NCBI RefSeq assembly: GCF_003149145.1
Contig: NZ_QGDQ01000001.1
Span: forward strand, 248,001 to 312,000
Reading direction: 5' to 3'
From: Quadrisphaera granulorum
GTDB taxonomy: Bacteria; Actinomycetota; Actinomycetes; Actinomycetales; Quadrisphaeraceae
Length of the DNA stretch: 64,000 bases
Of this stretch, positions 974-41,887 are shown in pieces. Both the position numbers and the translations under genes were made by a program. Within the stretch, counting starts at the first letter, position 1; each line of letters opens with the position of its first letter. The notes under the pieces were generated by a model. That model was not told where the DNA came from and searched no databases. It was given only the letters and a program-made list of their open reading frames with translations.

Positions 974-3109
974 ATGTCCCAGACCACACACGCGACCCTC
1001 GCGGACGCCGTCCTCGCCTCGCTCGACCCCGAGCAGCGGGCGGTGGCCTCCGCGCTGCGCGGGCCCGTGTGCGTGCTGGCGGGCGCAGGCACCGGCAAGA
1101 CCCGCGCCATCACCCACCGCATCGCCCACGGGGTGCACGCCGGTGTGTACGACCCGCGCAGCGTGCTCGCGCTGACGTTCACCTCCCGCGCTGCGGGGGA
1201 GATGCGCTCGCGTCTGCGTGACCTCGGGGTTCCCGCGGTGCAGGCCCGCACGTTCCACGCCGCGGCGCTCCGCCAGCTGCAGTACTTCTGGCCGACCGCG
1301 GTGGGCGGCCCGCTGCCGGTGCTCGTCGAGCACAAGGCGCGCATCGTGGCCGAGGCCGCGAGCCGGCTGCGTCTTTCGGTGGACCGGACGGCCGTCCGCG
1401 ACCTGTCGGCCGAGGTCGAGTGGGCCAAGGTCGCCCTGCTCACCCCGGAGGCCTACCCGGCGGCCGTCACGCGCGCCGGGCGCACCCCACCGGCCGGGCT
1501 CGACCCGAGCGCCATGAGCCGCGTCATGCAGTCCTACGAGGACGTCAAGACCGACCGCGGCGCCATGGACTTCGAGGACGTGCTGCTCCTGACCTGCGGC
1601 ATCCTCGCCGAGCGCGGCGACGTCGCCGAGAGCGTCCGCCGCCAGTACCGCTACTTCACGGTCGACGAGTACCAGGACGTCTCCCCGCTGCAGCAGCGCC
1701 TGCTCGACCTGTGGCTCGGCGGCCGTGAAGACGTCTGCGTGGTCGGAGACGCCAGTCAGACCATCTACTCCTTCGCGGGGGCCACGCCGGCGCACCTGCT
1801 GGAGTTCCCGCGCCGCCACCCCGGCGCGTCCGTGATCCGGCTCGTGCGCGACTACCGCTCCACCCCGCAGGTCGTGGCGCTGGCCAACCGCCTGCTCGAC
1901 AGGGCGCCGGCTGCCGCGGTGAGGGCCCGGGTGGAGCTCGTCGCCCAGCGGCCGCCCGGCCCGGACCCGACCTTCACGGAGTACGACGACGACGTCGCCG
2001 AGGCGGCCGGCGTGGCCGCCGCGGTGCGCCGCCGTATCGACGCGGGTACGCCACCGGCCGAGATCGCGGTGCTGTTCCGCACCAACGGCCAGTCCGAGCC
2101 GCTCGAAGCCGCCCTGTCCGACGCGGGCGTGGGCTACCAGCTGCGCGGTGGGGAGAAGTTCTTCTTCCGCGCCGAGGTCCGCCAGGCCGTGCTGCTGCTG
2201 CGTGGTGCCGCCCGCTCCGACGACGGCAGCCGCCCTCTCGGTGAGGCCGTGCGCGACGTGCTGGCCAGCGCCGGCTGGACCGCTGAACCGCCGACCACCG
2301 CGGGAGCGGCGCGCGAGCGATGGTCATCCCTGCAGGCTCTGGCCGCTCTTGCCGACGACGTCGCCGCGGCCCGCCCCGGTGCGCGCGTGGCCGACCTCGT
2401 CACCGAGATCGACGAGCGGTCCGCCGCCCAGCACGCCCCCACGGTGCAGGGCGTCACGCTGGCGTCCTTCCATGCGGCCAAGGGCCTCGAGTGGGACGCG
2501 GTGTGGTTGGTCGGGGTGAGCGAGGGCCTGCTGCCGATCAGCTTCTCCGCGGACGACCCGGAGAAGGTCGAGGAGGAGCGGCGGCTCCTCTACGTGGGCA
2601 TCACGCGGGCCCGCGAGCACCTGGCGCTCTCCTGGGGGCGGGCTCGCACGCCGGGCGGGCGTGCGAGCCGTACGCCGTCGCGGTTCCTCGACGGTCTGCG
2701 CCCCGTCGACCCGGCCGAGCGCCGCCGCGGGGGCGGTTCCGGCGGGGGAGCGGGTGGGTCAGGGGGTGGCCGCTCGAAGAAGGGCCCCGGACTGGCCCGT
2801 GTCTGTCGCTCCTGCGGCGCGGTCCTCGACACTCCCGCCGAGCGGAAGGTCGGGCGCTGCGAGAGCTGCCCGCCCACCTATGACGAGGGTGTCTTCGACG
2901 CCCTGCGCACCTGGCGTTCCGCCACCGCGTCAGAGGCGAAGGTGCCCGCGTACGTCGTTTTCACCGACGCGACGCTCGTCGCGATCGCCGAGACCACCCC
3001 GTCCGACACGGCGGGACTTGCCCGCATCCCCGGCGTCGGCCCGGCCAAGCTCGAGAAGTACGGCGAGGCAGTGCTCGACGTCCTCAAGCGTTCGGCAGAC
3101 CAGACCTGA
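974..3109 (+). CDS. uvrD2: ATP-dependent DNA helicase UvrD2 (SF1A, with zinc-finger and HRDC domain)
   Basis: A 711-residue superfamily 1 helicase of the UvrD/PcrA type. Seen in order: Q-motif near 17-24 (LDPEQRAV), Walker A AGAGTGKT at 36-43, LTFTSRAAGEM (motif Ia), VDEYQDV at ~230 (motif II), GDASQTIYSFAGA (III), and C-terminal motifs V/VI ending in LLYVGITRARE. A Gly-rich linker then leads to a four-cysteine zinc-finger (CRSC...CESC, ~610-634) and an HRDC domain (~635-711) with RIPGVGPAKLEKYG. Helicase plus Cys4 plus HRDC is the known actinobacterial UvrD2 architecture. As in Mycobacterium, whiB7 lies nearby (here one MFS gene intervenes). Likely role: 3'-5' unwinding in DNA repair. The 3' end runs into a long hairpin repeat (3122-3172). 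Confidence 0.93.
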   Translation: MSQTTHATLADAVLASLDPEQRAVASALRGPVCVLAGAGTGKTRAITHRIAHGVHAGVYDPRSVLALTFTSRAAGEMRSRLRDLGVPAVQARTFHAAALRQLQYFWPTAVGGPLPVLVEHKARIVAEAASRLRLSVDRTAVRDLSAEVEWAKVALLTPEAYPAAVTRAGRTPPAGLDPSAMSRVMQSYEDVKTDRGAMDFEDVLLLTCGILAERGDVAESVRRQYRYFTVDEYQDVSPLQQRLLDLWLGGREDVCVVGDASQTIYSFAGATPAHLLEFPRRHPGASVIRLVRDYRSTPQVVALANRLLDRAPAAAVRARVELVAQRPPGPDPTFTEYDDDVAEAAGVAAAVRRRIDAGTPPAEIAVLFRTNGQSEPLEAALSDAGVGYQLRGGEKFFFRAEVRQAVLLLRGAARSDDGSRPLGEAVRDVLASAGWTAEPPTTAGAARERWSSLQALAALADDVAAARPGARVADLVTEIDERSAAQHAPTVQGVTLASFHAAKGLEWDAVWLVGVSEGLLPISFSADDPEKVEEERRLLYVGITRAREHLALSWGRARTPGGRASRTPSRFLDGLRPVDPAERRRGGGSGGGAGGSGGGRSKKGPGLARVCRSCGAVLDTPAERKVGRCESCPPTYDEGVFDALRTWRSATASEAKVPAYVVFTDATLVAIAETTPSDTAGLARIPGVGPAKLEKYGEAVLDVLKRSADQT

Positions 3110-3121
3110 CAGCCCCTCCGC

Positions 3122-3172
3122 GACGATCAAGGAAGTTGTGCACGCGCCGCCGGCAGAGCTTCCGTGATCGTC
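3122..3172. repeat. Long hairpin repeat of the GCGACGATCA family, copy 1
   Basis: Two 20-nt arms, 3122-3141 and 3153-3172, are inverted copies with three non-Watson-Crick positions. The outer arm begins CGACGATCAAGGAAG. Bases 3121-3143 are identical to the start of a second hairpin at 25259. It sits just after the uvrD2 stop and overlaps the last codons of the convergent MFS gene, so it may act as a two-way terminator. No U-tract is present. Confidence 0.75.
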
Positions 3173-4431
3173 ACAAGGGGCGAGGGCTGCGCGGCCACGA
3201 GGCCCGGCCGGGTGGCGAGGGACCGCGCTCGCGGAGGCCGCAGCGCCAGCCAGGCACCGACGGCGCACAGCGCGAAGAGCCCCACCGCCCCTGGCAGCGA
3301 CCACAGTGCCCACAGCCCGTACAGCGCCAGGCTGCCCAGCTGACTGACGACTCCGGCCACAGAGGTCACGGTGGCGCGTGCATCTCCCACGACGTGCTCC
3401 TGCAGGCGGGCGTCGGCCACGACGAGCACTGCCCGGTAGGCGCCGTAGCCCAGCGCCACCAGCGCCGTCCCCGCCACCTGGTGCAGCAGATCGGCGACCT
3501 CCAGGCTGGCGGCTGCCGCCACGAGCCACCCGCCCAGCACGAGCGGGCGGATCCCGGCCAGCCGCTCACCGAAGGCGGCGCCGAGTGCCCCGGCCATGGG
3601 GATGACGAGGACGACGAGGGGGTTCACCGCGTCGGGCACGCCCCACGCCCGAGCCAGCAGCGGGGTGTACTCGTCGATGGCGTCGAGTCCGGTGAGCAGA
3701 CCCACCACGACGACGACGGCCGCGAGGCGCCGGTGGTGGACGAGCACGCCGATGCCCTGCCGGAGCGCACCGGGTGCGGTGACGACCTCGCCGACGTCGG
3801 CGTCTTCCGGGGGAGCGACCGTGCTGTGGGGCGGCTCCCGCACGAGGACGGCCACCGCGGCGGCGAGCAGGCACGACGCGGCACTGGCCCAGCCGACGGC
3901 GGGGTAGCCACCCCACGACGCCAGGGCGACCGCCGCGAGGGTGCCGGGCAGCTGGCCGAGCAGCTGCGCGGCGCGCACCCGGCCGATGACCTTCGCGTAG
4001 CGGTGCTGCTCGTCGGCTTCTGCGAGGCCGTCCCAGACGAGAGCCTCGAGGGCGCCGACCGCGAGGGCGAGCGCCAACCCCCACAGGACGAAGCCCGCGG
4101 CGAACGACGGCGCGGTGGGCCAGACGGTCCACAGCACGTAGCCCACGGCCTGCAGCACTCCTGACAGCACCAGGGCGGTGCGTCGTGACGTTCGGTCGGC
4201 CAGGGCCCCGCACGGAACCTGCGCGAGCACGGTGGTGAGCGCCCAGACGGCGAACAGCCCCGAGATCTGCGCCTCGCTGAGGCCGTGGTCGGCGAACAGC
4301 AACGAGTAGAGCGGGTACAGCGGCACGGACTCCGAGAGCACGGCCCACGCGAGCGCCAACCCGACGAGGCGCCGCGCGCGGTGGTGCGCGGTGTGGGTGC
4401 GCTGCATGTCCGTCGGGCACGGCGCAGTCAT
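3127..4431 (-). CDS. MFS transporter (12-TM efflux-type permease)
   Basis: A 434-residue integral membrane protein with about twelve hydrophobic segments. The loop after TM2 carries GALADRTSRRTALVLSG, the MFS A-like motif. Substrate unknown; a drug or metabolite exporter is the default guess. Start taken as ATG at 4431 (MTAPCPTDMQ); a second ATG lies eight codons in, and an upstream in-frame start at 4479 would add unlikely sequence. Its last codons lie inside the hairpin repeat at 3122-3172, so the C-terminus LVTITEALPAARAQLP is partly repeat-encoded. It sits between uvrD2 and whiB7, so a role in WhiB7-type drug resistance is possible, but its promoter does not show the A-tract seen upstream of whiB7. 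Confidence 0.85.
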   Translation of the reverse strand: MTAPCPTDMQRTHTAHHRARRLVGLALAWAVLSESVPLYPLYSLLFADHGLSEAQISGLFAVWALTTVLAQVPCGALADRTSRRTALVLSGVLQAVGYVLWTVWPTAPSFAAGFVLWGLALALAVGALEALVWDGLAEADEQHRYAKVIGRVRAAQLLGQLPGTLAAVALASWGGYPAVGWASAASCLLAAAVAVLVREPPHSTVAPPEDADVGEVVTAPGALRQGIGVLVHHRRLAAVVVVVGLLTGLDAIDEYTPLLARAWGVPDAVNPLVVLVIPMAGALGAAFGERLAGIRPLVLGGWLVAAAASLEVADLLHQVAGTALVALGYGAYRAVLVVADARLQEHVVGDARATVTSVAGVVSQLGSLALYGLWALWSLPGAVGLFALCAVGAWLALRPPRARSLATRPGLVAAQPSPLVTITEALPAARAQLP

Positions 4432-4620
4432 GAGGCGACCCTGGCGTGCGGGAGGTGGCCTGCACCACGGTGCTGGCACCTAGTTCCCGGGGGACGACGT
4501 TGGGGACGAGGAACGGGATCCGCGGGCGTCTCGATCGCGTTCCGGAGGGTCACCGGAGCGCCTTGCCCGCGGCTTGCGGGGCGGCTGGTGGGACAGCCCG
4601 GACACCCGGCTGGCGAAGAC

Positions 4621-4671
4621 TTCGGAAAAACCTGTTGTGCCGTTCTCGCGGGGCCCCCTAGCCTCTGGGAC
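4621..4671 (+). promoter_or_regulatory. Predicted whiB7 promoter with A-tract WhiB7-type element
   Basis: A run of five A (4626-4630) in otherwise GC-rich DNA lies just upstream of a -35-like TTGTGC (4635-4640). An 18-bp spacer follows, then a -10-like TAGCCT (4659-4664). An A/T-rich block directly upstream of -35 is the known hallmark of WhiB7-activated promoters, bound by the WhiB7 AT-hook while WhiB7 contacts the housekeeping sigma factor. This suggests autoregulation. The transcript would start near 4671, giving a leader of about 460 nt before whiB7. Confidence 0.6.
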
Positions 4672-4725
4672 AAGCGATCAGCACTGTCCGCAACGGGCGG
4701 TGCTCTGACGAAGGAGGTGCGCGCG

Positions 4726-5016
4726 ATGACGTGGTTCATGGACAACCAGTTCGAGGTGTCGTCCTTCGACCTCCGCGTGCCCACCGCCGGTGGGTTCCAC
4801 GGCACCGCTGTGCCCGCGCCCGTCGGCTCCTTCGCTGACGGCCCGGCCGCCTTCCTCATCGGCGGAGCGCCCAGCGGACAGCTCAGTGGACAGCGCCGCG
4901 GAGGGGCTGCTGGCTACGGCCACGCCCTGCGCCAGCGCCCTGACGCCGTCGCCCTCATCTCGAACCCGCCCGTCTCGGGGCTCCCCCCTGTCCGCCGGCA
5001 GGTGCTGACCAGCTAG
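4726..5016 (+). CDS. Candidate whiB7 leader ORF (uORF), 96 codons
   Basis: ATG at 4726 follows a near-perfect Shine-Dalgarno (AAGGAGGT, 4711-4718) seven bases upstream, among the best in the window. The 96-residue product starts MTWFMDNQFEVSSFDLRVPT and resembles no family I recognise. Its stop at 5014-5016 lies 22 bases before the intrinsic terminator 5039-5074, which itself precedes whiB7. Known whiB7/wblC leaders in Mycobacterium and Streptomyces contain a translated uORF whose disturbed translation prevents termination, so this ORF is best read as the sensor. It is longer than I would expect for such a leader peptide. It may instead start or end differently, or be an ordinary small protein. 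Confidence 0.6.
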   Translation: MTWFMDNQFEVSSFDLRVPTAGGFHGTAVPAPVGSFADGPAAFLIGGAPSGQLSGQRRGGAAGYGHALRQRPDAVALISNPPVSGLPPVRRQVLTS

Positions 5017-5038
5017 GTCCGCTCCTCTCCCGGCGCCA

Positions 5039-5074
5039 GGCCGCGGATCCCCGACCCAGGGGACCGCGGCCTTT
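5039..5074 (+). terminator. Attenuator: intrinsic terminator in the whiB7 leader
   Basis: Stem GGCCGCGG (5039-5046) pairs with CCGCGGCC (5064-5071). After a bulged A, TCCCC (5048-5052) pairs with GGGGA (5059-5063) around a 6-nt loop, and the stem is followed by TTTGT. It lies between the leader ORF and whiB7 on the same strand, where a plain terminator would silence whiB7. An 11-bp direct repeat, CTCCTCTCCCG, flanks it (5022-5032 and 5089-5099). GGTCC at 5016-5020 could pair with GGACC at 5061-5065 in a competing fold. Confidence 0.75.
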
Positions 5075-5133
5075 GTGCTGCCAGCGGTCTCCTCTCCCGC
5101 TCCGCAGCACCGCCACACCGAGAGGAACACCCC

Positions 5134-5391
5134 ATGTCGTCGCTGCCCTGCCGGGTCAACGACCCGGAGCTCTGGTTCGCCGAGCTTCCGCAGGACGTCG
5201 AGGCCGCCAAGGCCCTGTGCACGGGCTGCCCCCTGCGCGCCGAATGCCTCGACGGGGCCCTGGCCCGTTCCGAGCCGTGGGGCGTCTGGGGCGGCGAACT
5301 GGTCCTGGCCGGAGTCGTCGTGCCCCGTAAGCGGCCCCGCGGCCGCCCCCGCAAGCACCCCCTTCCCGAGCCCGTCGGAGCCGTCGCGTGA
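5134..5391 (+). CDS. whiB7: WhiB7 transcriptional regulator of antibiotic response
   Basis: An 85-residue iron-sulfur regulator. Four cysteines (6, 29, 32, 38) bind a 4Fe-4S cluster in the WhiB spacing C-x22-C-x2-C-x5-C. The EPWGVWGG turn (47-54) contacts the primary sigma factor. The C-terminal AT-hook RGRPRK (69-74) is the feature that sets WhiB7 apart from other Wbl proteins. Known role: activates intrinsic-resistance genes when ribosome-targeting drugs or amino-acid stress impair translation. Start ATG 5134, with GAGAGGA upstream. Control is predicted both by the A-tract promoter near 4626 and by the attenuator 5039-5074. The next gene overlaps its stop (GTGA). Proximity to uvrD2 matches Mycobacterium. 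Confidence 0.93.
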   Translation: MSSLPCRVNDPELWFAELPQDVEAAKALCTGCPLRAECLDGALARSEPWGVWGGELVLAGVVVPRKRPRGRPRKHPLPEPVGAVA

Positions 5392-5633
5392 GCGCGACCC
5401 GACCCGCGGGCGGACACCCCCTGATCGAGGAGACCGCCGTGCATCACCACCCCGATTTCGCTCTGGCGTGGCATCACCAGCGCAGCGCCGAGCTGCGCGA
5501 GCAGGCCATGTGGTCGCGCCAGGCCGCGTCACGGCGAGACGCCCGCCGGGCGGCTCGCCTGGCGGCGAAGGCCCAGCGTCTGGCCGATCGCGCCGCACAG
5601 CGTGCCGTGGCTCGGCCGCTCCCGGCGGCCTGA
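5388..5633 (+). CDS. Small basic protein co-translated with WhiB7, function unknown
   Basis: An 81-residue protein whose GTG start overlaps the whiB7 stop (GTGA), so it is very likely translated by coupling. The N-terminus is His-rich (VHHHPDFALAWHHQRSAELRE). Residues ~40-75 form a continuous Ala/Arg helix (ASRRDARRAARLAAKAQRLA). No known domain recognised. Alternative start: GTG at the His-rich segment, giving a ~66-residue protein. A strong terminator follows at 5659, so it closes the whiB7 transcription unit. Being induced together with WhiB7 suggests a role in the drug response, but this rests on position only. Confidence 0.7.
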   Translation: MSATRPAGGHPLIEETAVHHHPDFALAWHHQRSAELREQAMWSRQAASRRDARRAARLAAKAQRLADRAAQRAVARPLPAA

Positions 5634-5658
5634 CATCCGCTGACGTTCCCTGTCGCCA

Positions 5659-5693
5659 CCGGGCCCCGGAGGTACTGGACCTCCGGGGCCCGG
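5659..5693 (+). terminator. Strong hairpin terminator of the whiB7 unit
   Basis: A perfect 15-bp stem (5659-5673 with 5679-5693) around a 5-nt ACTGG loop, starting CCGGGCCCCGG. There is no U-tract, as is common in GC-rich actinobacteria. It lies 25 bases after the small-ORF stop and 17 bases before the AIM24 start. Confidence 0.8.
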
Positions 5694-5710
5694 GATGCCA
5701 GGGTTCACCC

Positions 5711-16765: not shown

Positions 16766-17134
16766 GGGGGTGCCAGGTCTCGACGTCGCATCGTCGAACC
16801 AGGGGAAGCGGGTCGAGAAGGCAAGGTCATCTCGTTAACGTTCCTTGCAAACCCATAGGTGCCGATTCCAAGAGCACCGACTTCGCTCTCGCTGCCTGAT
16901 CAGCTGAGTTGAAAGTCCGTCGGCCCGGGAGTGCTCCCGGCCCGGGTACCGGCGTCAGCTAGGGGGCTCCACCACCGACCAGTGTCACCGGGGTCGGTGG
17001 GAAATCAAGGTGACTGGGCCCGTCAGCGCAACGTCCGTGTGAGCGCTGGGGCCGAGTAGAACGATTCACGGTCTGCACCCGGAGAAGCCCTGGGGGTACG
17101 ACGGCGGACGCGGGTTCGATTCCCGCCACCTCCA
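16766..17134 (+). ncRNA. ssrA: Transfer-messenger RNA (tmRNA)
   Basis: A 369-nt gene for the ribosome-rescue RNA. The 5' end GGGGGTG (16766-16772) pairs with CACCTCC (17127-17133) as a 7-bp acceptor stem with one G-U, leaving discriminator A17134. CCA is not encoded. The T-arm is GCGGG/CCCGC (17110-17114/17122-17126) with TTCGATT loop. The 5' domain GTCTCGACGTCGC matches the tRNA-like domain. The tag reading frame starts at GCC 16861 and gives ADSKSTDFALAA before TGA 16897-16899, a standard degradation tag ending ALAA. It works with SmpB, encoded 3.3 kb upstream. Confidence 0.95.
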
Positions 17135-17188
17135 CTCGTCGCTCTCAAAAGTTCCACTCAGAAGTCAGAAGAGCGGCACCCCACCCGT

Positions 17189-41760: not shown

Positions 41761-41887
41761 CGCTGCGTTATGAGCAATTGTGAGCAGGGCCAGCAGTGCT
41801 GGCAGACTGCTCGCCGGCTCCGGCTCACGTGCGCCCTGTCCGAGGGGCCCGCACGACCCGGCGGCCACCGACACCCGAGGAGCACCT
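41761..41887 (+). promoter_or_regulatory. rpmE upstream region with possible leader hairpin
   Basis: An AT-richer start (TTATGAGCAATTG at 41768-41780) could hold a -10. A small stem CCAGCA/TGCTGG (41791-41803) and a larger stem, CGTGCG (41828-41833) with CGCACG (41850-41855) and inner CCC/GGG pairs, lie before the ribosome site GAGGAGC. Ribosomal leaders upstream of rpmE are known in actinobacteria, but I cannot confirm a match to that model. Confidence 0.35.

Follow-up and report, generated by a model that had tools for sequence, protein, structure and literature searches.

The leader of whiB7 in Quadrisphaera granulorum is very probably a cis-acting attenuator, a member of the whiB7/wblC uORF-attenuator family. 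Among the intrinsic drug-resistance regulators of actinobacteria, whiB7 is the main one. The parts of the switch, their conservation throughout the phylum, the competing and covarying pairings and the absence of selection on the leader peptide all come from computation and comparison. The attenuators reported from Mycobacterium and Streptomyces (Burian and Thompson 2018; Lee, Lee and Roe 2022; Dinan 2014, PMC4128351) share with this locus the gene, the promoter type, a uORF led by a Shine-Dalgarno sequence and a Rho-independent terminator, and in them, likewise, an antiterminator is exposed upon inhibited translation of the uORF. The elements are listed in Table 1; coordinates refer to the window, that is, the whole analysed stretch of 64,000 nucleotides. 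The initial annotation, which had read the locus as a ribosome-sensing attenuator of the whiB7 type, had placed the Shine-Dalgarno sequence, the uORF, the stem-loop and whiB7 correctly. Position and conservation speak for its reading, as do covariation and the mutually exclusive RNA structures.

Table 1. Elements of the whiB7 leader region (window coordinates)
Feature	Position	Strand	Details
Promoter, AT-rich WhiB7-type box	4626-4630	+	AAAAA; promoter element span 4626-4664
Promoter -35	4635-4640	+	TTGTGC
Promoter -10	4659-4664	+	TAGCCT
Shine-Dalgarno of uORF	4711-4719	+	AAGGAGGTG
uORF	4726-5016	+	ATG 4726, 96 codons, TAG 5014-5016
Conserved frame-independent element within uORF	4797-4818	+	about 22 nt; putative function
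Candidate pause register	4801-4812		G-11G-10 = 4801-4802, T-3 = 4809, G-2 = 4810, T-1 = 4811, G+1 = 4812
Antiterminator 5' strand and upper hairpin	4975-5036	+	TCGGGG 4975-4980, TCC 4982-4984, CCTG 4987-4990
Shared switch strand	5037-5054	+	CAGGCCGCGGATCCCCGA; antiterminator 3' strand = terminator 5' arm
Intrinsic terminator hairpin	5039-5074	+	stem 5039-5071, 14 bp; TTT 5072-5074
whiB7	5134-5391	+	85 aa; WhiB domain, GVWGG, KRPRGRPRK AT hook

The promoter is arranged as AAAAA-N4-TTGTGC-N18-TAGCCT, the AT-rich box residing directly 5' of its own -35 as in WhiB7/WblC promoters. WhiB7 autoregulation is mediated by an AT-rich site adjoining the -35 (PMC6282962). Sequence comparison revealed that promoter and box are kept in sister species of the genus, and a box similar to the WhiB7 type, in the same promoter layout, was found upstream in 115 of 120 loci. 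Transcription is expected to start near 4671, and the leader between promoter and whiB7 measures about 460 nt. A simple scan of 4200-5700, including the 5075-5133 interval in which the initial annotation had considered a separate promoter, detected no sigma-70-like promoter. The whiB7 product matches the Pfam WhiB family (3.2e-15). Its translation carries four Cys residues and a GVWGG motif conforming to the G(V/I)WGG of WhiB domains, and the AT hook assigns it to Wbl class V, according to the class signature and AT-hook motif defined in PMC6282962. In a species of the same genus (locus L036, G003:C1:425424-425674) whiB7 is one base short right after GVWGG, which puts the AT hook out of frame; a sequencing error could account for it. 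Second, more diverged WhiB7-like genes occur in genomes of genus g17 (L084, L089, L092 and L093); having neither a listed uORF nor the conserved terminator, they are apparently paralogues outside the attenuator. Upstream of whiB7 the window carries, within 974-4479, a uvrD2-like helicase gene with an HRDC domain, and HRDC-like C termini also turn up among the leader ORFs listed for other loci. Between helicase and whiB7, and divergent from the latter, lies an MFS efflux-type transporter gene (3127-4479, minus strand). An 81-aa ORF at 5388-5633 overlaps the whiB7 stop codon, and has no convincing family match.

WhiB7 loci were gathered from 149 relatives and by scanning named genomes of Mycobacterium, Rhodococcus, Pseudonocardia, Streptomyces, Nocardioides, Actinomadura, Nonomuraea, Kineosporia, Cellulomonas and other genera. 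An identical layout was recognised in 120 loci, 104 of them non-redundant, with the uORF sitting between promoter and terminator as in the known whiB7/wblC attenuators. The start codon is usually ATG or GTG, the preceding Shine-Dalgarno sequence is strong in every locus counted, and stop codon and terminator are separated by a median of 23 nt (104 loci). In the non-redundant set the uORF measures 37 to 147 codons (median 78), and at least 96 codons in 22 of the 104 loci. The leader ORF of the window, initially described as unusually long, is thus of ordinary length for whiB7 leaders. Weak uORF matches in the genomes G043 and G051, which have no whiB7 nearby, look like chance. In genus g2, belonging to the family of the window, four loci (L054, L060, L061 and L067) host uORFs of 108-142 codons, that of L061 with tandem TGASGA-like repeats, followed after the stop codon by a row of three mutually complementary GCCGCGGCTCC/GGGAGCCGCGGC copies, as though the switch had been reconstructed 3' of the uORF. 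In Rfam there is no model for the leader, which matches no family at gathering score. Elsewhere in the window, Rfam matches correspond to a tmRNA (16766-17137) and to an L31-Actinobacteria ribosomal protein leader (41814-41866).

The stem-loop with TTT end, located between uORF and whiB7 and indicated as strong from the beginning, folds at -31.3 kcal/mol (z -6.86), and none of 200 shuffled sequences folds as well. Its U tract is short (TTTGTG). The stem GCCGCGGANCCC...GGGTCCGCGGC is nearly invariant among 69 aligned loci. The 5' arm is consumed by an alternative structure overlapping the uORF, and in the computed folds the two are mutually exclusive. In the window, 4975-5054 folds as a single hairpin (-44.8 kcal/mol, z -3.2), the lower part of which is built by the TCGGGG/CCCCGA, TCC/GGA and CCTG/CAGG pairings. 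The predicted apical hairpin, GACC 5007-5010 with GGTC 5016-5019, holds the stop codon in its apex (GACC-AGCTA-GGTC). The GGTCC at 5016-5020 had been proposed to pair with the right arm of the terminator; the sequence is there, but as the downstream half of the apex it pairs locally. An 11-bp CTCCTCTCCCG repeat flanking the terminator had also been pointed out. It exists, with a probability of chance occurrence of about 2% for this stretch, and was rejected as part of the switch because missing in near relatives: one copy is lost in the sister locus L010, both in L011, L036 and L012.

Conservation of the antiterminator is supported by several comparisons. In family-wise consensus folds, computed on leaders ending after the terminator 5' arm, the uORF sequence near the stop codon pairs with that arm in several families. 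In the 104 loci, the segment lying 65 to 30 nt 5' of the terminator has a mean pairing energy of -22.2 kcal/mol with the arm of its own locus, compared with -18.7 with foreign arms and -16.6 after shuffling; a position scan of the same loci revealed no comparable signal in other parts of the uORF. When arms were permuted among loci, the value of own-arm pairing (z -12) was never approached, and when the analysis was carried out by WhiB7 cluster, 26 of 33 went in the expected direction (p 9e-5). In snapshot folding, 101 of the 104 loci have the 5' arm paired to uORF sequence at a mean probability >0.5; among codon-shuffled controls the number is 56. The alignment across genera, which the initial annotation had envisaged, shows that the antiterminator covaries: in 69 sequences the score is 0.164, against 0.116 in shuffles (0/500) and at most 0.114 when the pairing is slid. 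Column pair 33/125 appears as GC, AU and GU, pair 34/124 as UA, CG, GU, AU and GC, the counts being of sequences, not of events, and resting mainly on families other than that of the window, as MAFFT gave a poor alignment of the window genus in the antiterminator region. Support for the antiterminator of the window therefore comes from its own folding. The terminator covaries likewise. Some of these antiterminator results are probably a repetition of those of Lee 2022, a key study of antiterminators conserved in whiB7 leaders.

We infer the ribosome steps at this locus as follows. A transcript starting near 4671 at the WhiB7-type promoter would have its uORF translated by ribosomes trailing RNA polymerase. 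Ribosomes arriving early enough at roughly the last dozen codons would keep 4975-5004 unpaired, allowing the terminator to form and transcription to stop. Should translation be slowed or blocked at any point further upstream, the 3' end of the uORF would fold with 5037-5054 into the long antiterminator hairpin, the 5' arm of the terminator would be captured, and the polymerase would continue into whiB7. The initial annotation had suggested folding the leader with the uORF masked or unmasked. In the folding model, a polymerase that has just cleared the 5' arm, with no ribosome close by, leaves the arm paired into the uORF at a mean probability of 0.68; a ribosome placed 10 codons short of the stop lowers this to 0.00. 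In a simple model in which the ribosome masks the stop codon alone, the probability stays at 0.70; a ribosome on the stop codon thus leaves the antiterminator in place, and the proposed mechanism requires steric exclusion or ribosome queuing. In the folding model of the complete leader at equilibrium, the terminator is favoured (0.87) with or without the ribosome. The decision must therefore be kinetic, and the antiterminator must form first. In Mycobacterium and Streptomyces others have shown induction by drugs; there, an undisturbed translation of the uORF is reported to lead to termination, an inhibited one to read-through. By homology, an equivalent response to drugs is expected at this locus.

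A second conserved component resides in the middle of the uORF. The peptide motifs QGTGLS, TGGVRL and AGENSA, found at this place in different leaders, are a single nucleotide element, CCAGGGGACnnGTnTGnCCGC, read in three frames (32, 19 and 13 copies). A profile lacking the family of the window ranks 4797-4818 first on both strands of the 64-kb window, and a pattern derived from the copies of that family has a zero-mismatch match only at this site in the whole genome. At a profile score of at least 13, 25 kb of uORF sequence contain 62 matches, and the same-strand sequence beyond the uORFs, 393 kb in all, contains 3. The profile was trained on the same loci, and the bias is corrected by holding out WhiB7 clusters: over a span of 800 nt either side, on both strands, the uORF holds the best match in 66 of 104 loci, against 7% expected, and the same is true of 21 of 33 clusters, which are uneven in size, one having 34 members. 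In 26 loci, most of those from Mycobacterium among them, the profile search found the element weak or missing.

The consensus elemental pause of RNA polymerase, reportedly described by Larson in 2014, reads G-11G-10 ... T-3G-2Y-1G+1. The residues G-10, Y-1 and G+1 are confirmed in PMC10268239. The window matches this consensus at 6/6 positions; 26 of 64 element copies match all six, and 58 five or more, with G-11 conserved at 95%, G-10 at 95%, T-3 at 97%, Y-1 at 100% and G+1 at 92%. The fit is found in exactly one register (5.3/6 positions, at most 3.5 in all others), and by a hand estimate would occur by chance in a few per cent of cases; it is suggestive, not proof. Between the uORF start and the candidate pause there are at least 56 nt (median 122), which gives room for ribosome loading, and the pause precedes the switch strand by a median of 140 nt. 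A hairpin pause was rejected, since no upstream hairpin is apparent (own upstream fold -7.17, shuffled -7.16). The reading favoured here, which we hold tentatively and at slightly less than an even chance, is that in many actinobacterial families a conserved pause within a long uORF starts a race between ribosome and polymerase, and that the leader measures translation speed. The polymerase would wait at 4797-4818 until the first ribosome has loaded and caught up, both would then cover the roughly 140 nt up to the switch, and a ribosome would lose only if slowed, by whatever means. The rest of the uORF would act as a measuring track, and special stall codons would be unneeded.

Alternatively, the element might bind RNA or a protein, or serve as an internal ribosome-binding site, a quite possible explanation that we place somewhat below an even chance. 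Positions outside the pause consensus (C-14, A-13, A-8, Y+2 and C+3) are conserved too, the AGGGGA core resembles a Shine-Dalgarno sequence, and the pause consensus is short, so that a GC-rich motif may match it by chance. The restriction of the match to one register argues for a pause. As an internal start site the element was rejected, as it is read in three frames with no start codon in fixed frame, and internal Shine-Dalgarno sequences are not generally enriched. No leader segment pairs specifically with it: in the leader scan own and swapped partners are about equal at almost every position, with weak and scattered differences.

That the leader rather works through an arrest peptide or specific codons, ribosomes stalling at one motif or codon run in response to a drug or an amino acid, is rather unlikely. 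Many drug-induced leaders (erm, tlrB) and the amino acid leaders work in this way, and PP occurs in the last 12 residues of 46 of 104 uORFs, against 6.5 expected. Yet the CCACCGGTC strand of the stop-codon hairpin accounts for these PP codons, and the mid-uORF motif keeps its nucleotides in all frames. Neither a conserved stalling peptide nor regulatory codons were found across the loci compared, no peptide motif being conserved across families. The peptide of the window has no dominant residue; the initial annotation was right that stall-sensing codons are not obvious, and their absence is probably meaningful. PPV often occurs just before the stop (e.g. in L043, L051 and L105), probably as a by-product of the same strand, and slow translation of PP near the uORF stop could matter.

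The initial annotation had also supposed that the leader peptide may itself be a functional protein; as a rival to attenuation, this would make the uORF a small protein co-transcribed with whiB7, the terminator merely setting the ratio. The 96 codons, the perfect Shine-Dalgarno sequence and the presence of peptide homologues in three sister species (67-76% identity) speak for it. In the four species with alignable uORFs, however, the uORF has a dN/dS of 1.27 and whiB7 one of 0.04. Over its first 30 and its last 26 codons the uORF shows a dS of 0.04 and a dN of 0.13-0.16; dS being far below dN, nucleotides are held at the uORF ends, not amino acids. Two further members of the genus (G003 and G005) carry unrelated peptides of equal length in the same place. 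All conserved stretches of the uORF coincide with nucleotide elements, and the peptide matches no Pfam family and one NCBIfam entry by chance. The leader peptide thus bears no sign of selection as a functional protein, and dN/dS, together with the unrelated peptides of the two sister species, makes this explanation very improbable. Equally hard to credit is a plain leaky terminator, with whiB7 controlled by its autoregulated promoter alone and no sensing, which would fit the WhiB7-type box and a terminator favoured at equilibrium, but not an antiterminator conserved and covarying across the phylum.

The attenuator resembles the trp, his and ilv leaders in that terminator and antiterminator are exclusive and the choice is set by ribosome position. 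A polymerase pause is also used by the trp and his leaders. Those leaders rely on short ORFs with runs of regulatory codons, whereas the ORF of the window is several times longer and has no evident run. In the antibiotic-induced tlrB and vmlR leaders of Bacillus subtilis, pausing synchronises ribosome and polymerase (PMC6851288, PMC9226507). The tlrB pauses depend on NusG and on hairpins, are T-rich, and lie 3' of a 9-aa arrest peptide; the candidate pause of the window, in contrast, is GC-rich, lacks an upstream hairpin and is located inside a long ORF. Differences are also found from Mycobacterium, where in the loci compared the uORFs have 49-52 codons instead of 96, the terminator arm reads GCCACGG instead of GCCGCGG, and the mid-uORF element, present in the window, was not found in most loci. 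This element looks unreported.

The whiB7 uORF senses many different drugs, and ribosome stalling in it was still untested according to a paper of 2025 (PMC12121999). The comparison yields a base-by-base antiterminator, a peptide dispensable in evolution, and one 22-nt element that may bear on speed sensing. If the favoured reading of the element is true, the sensing of translation speed would explain the induction of whiB7 by many unrelated drugs as well as by starvation, with no need for an arrest peptide.
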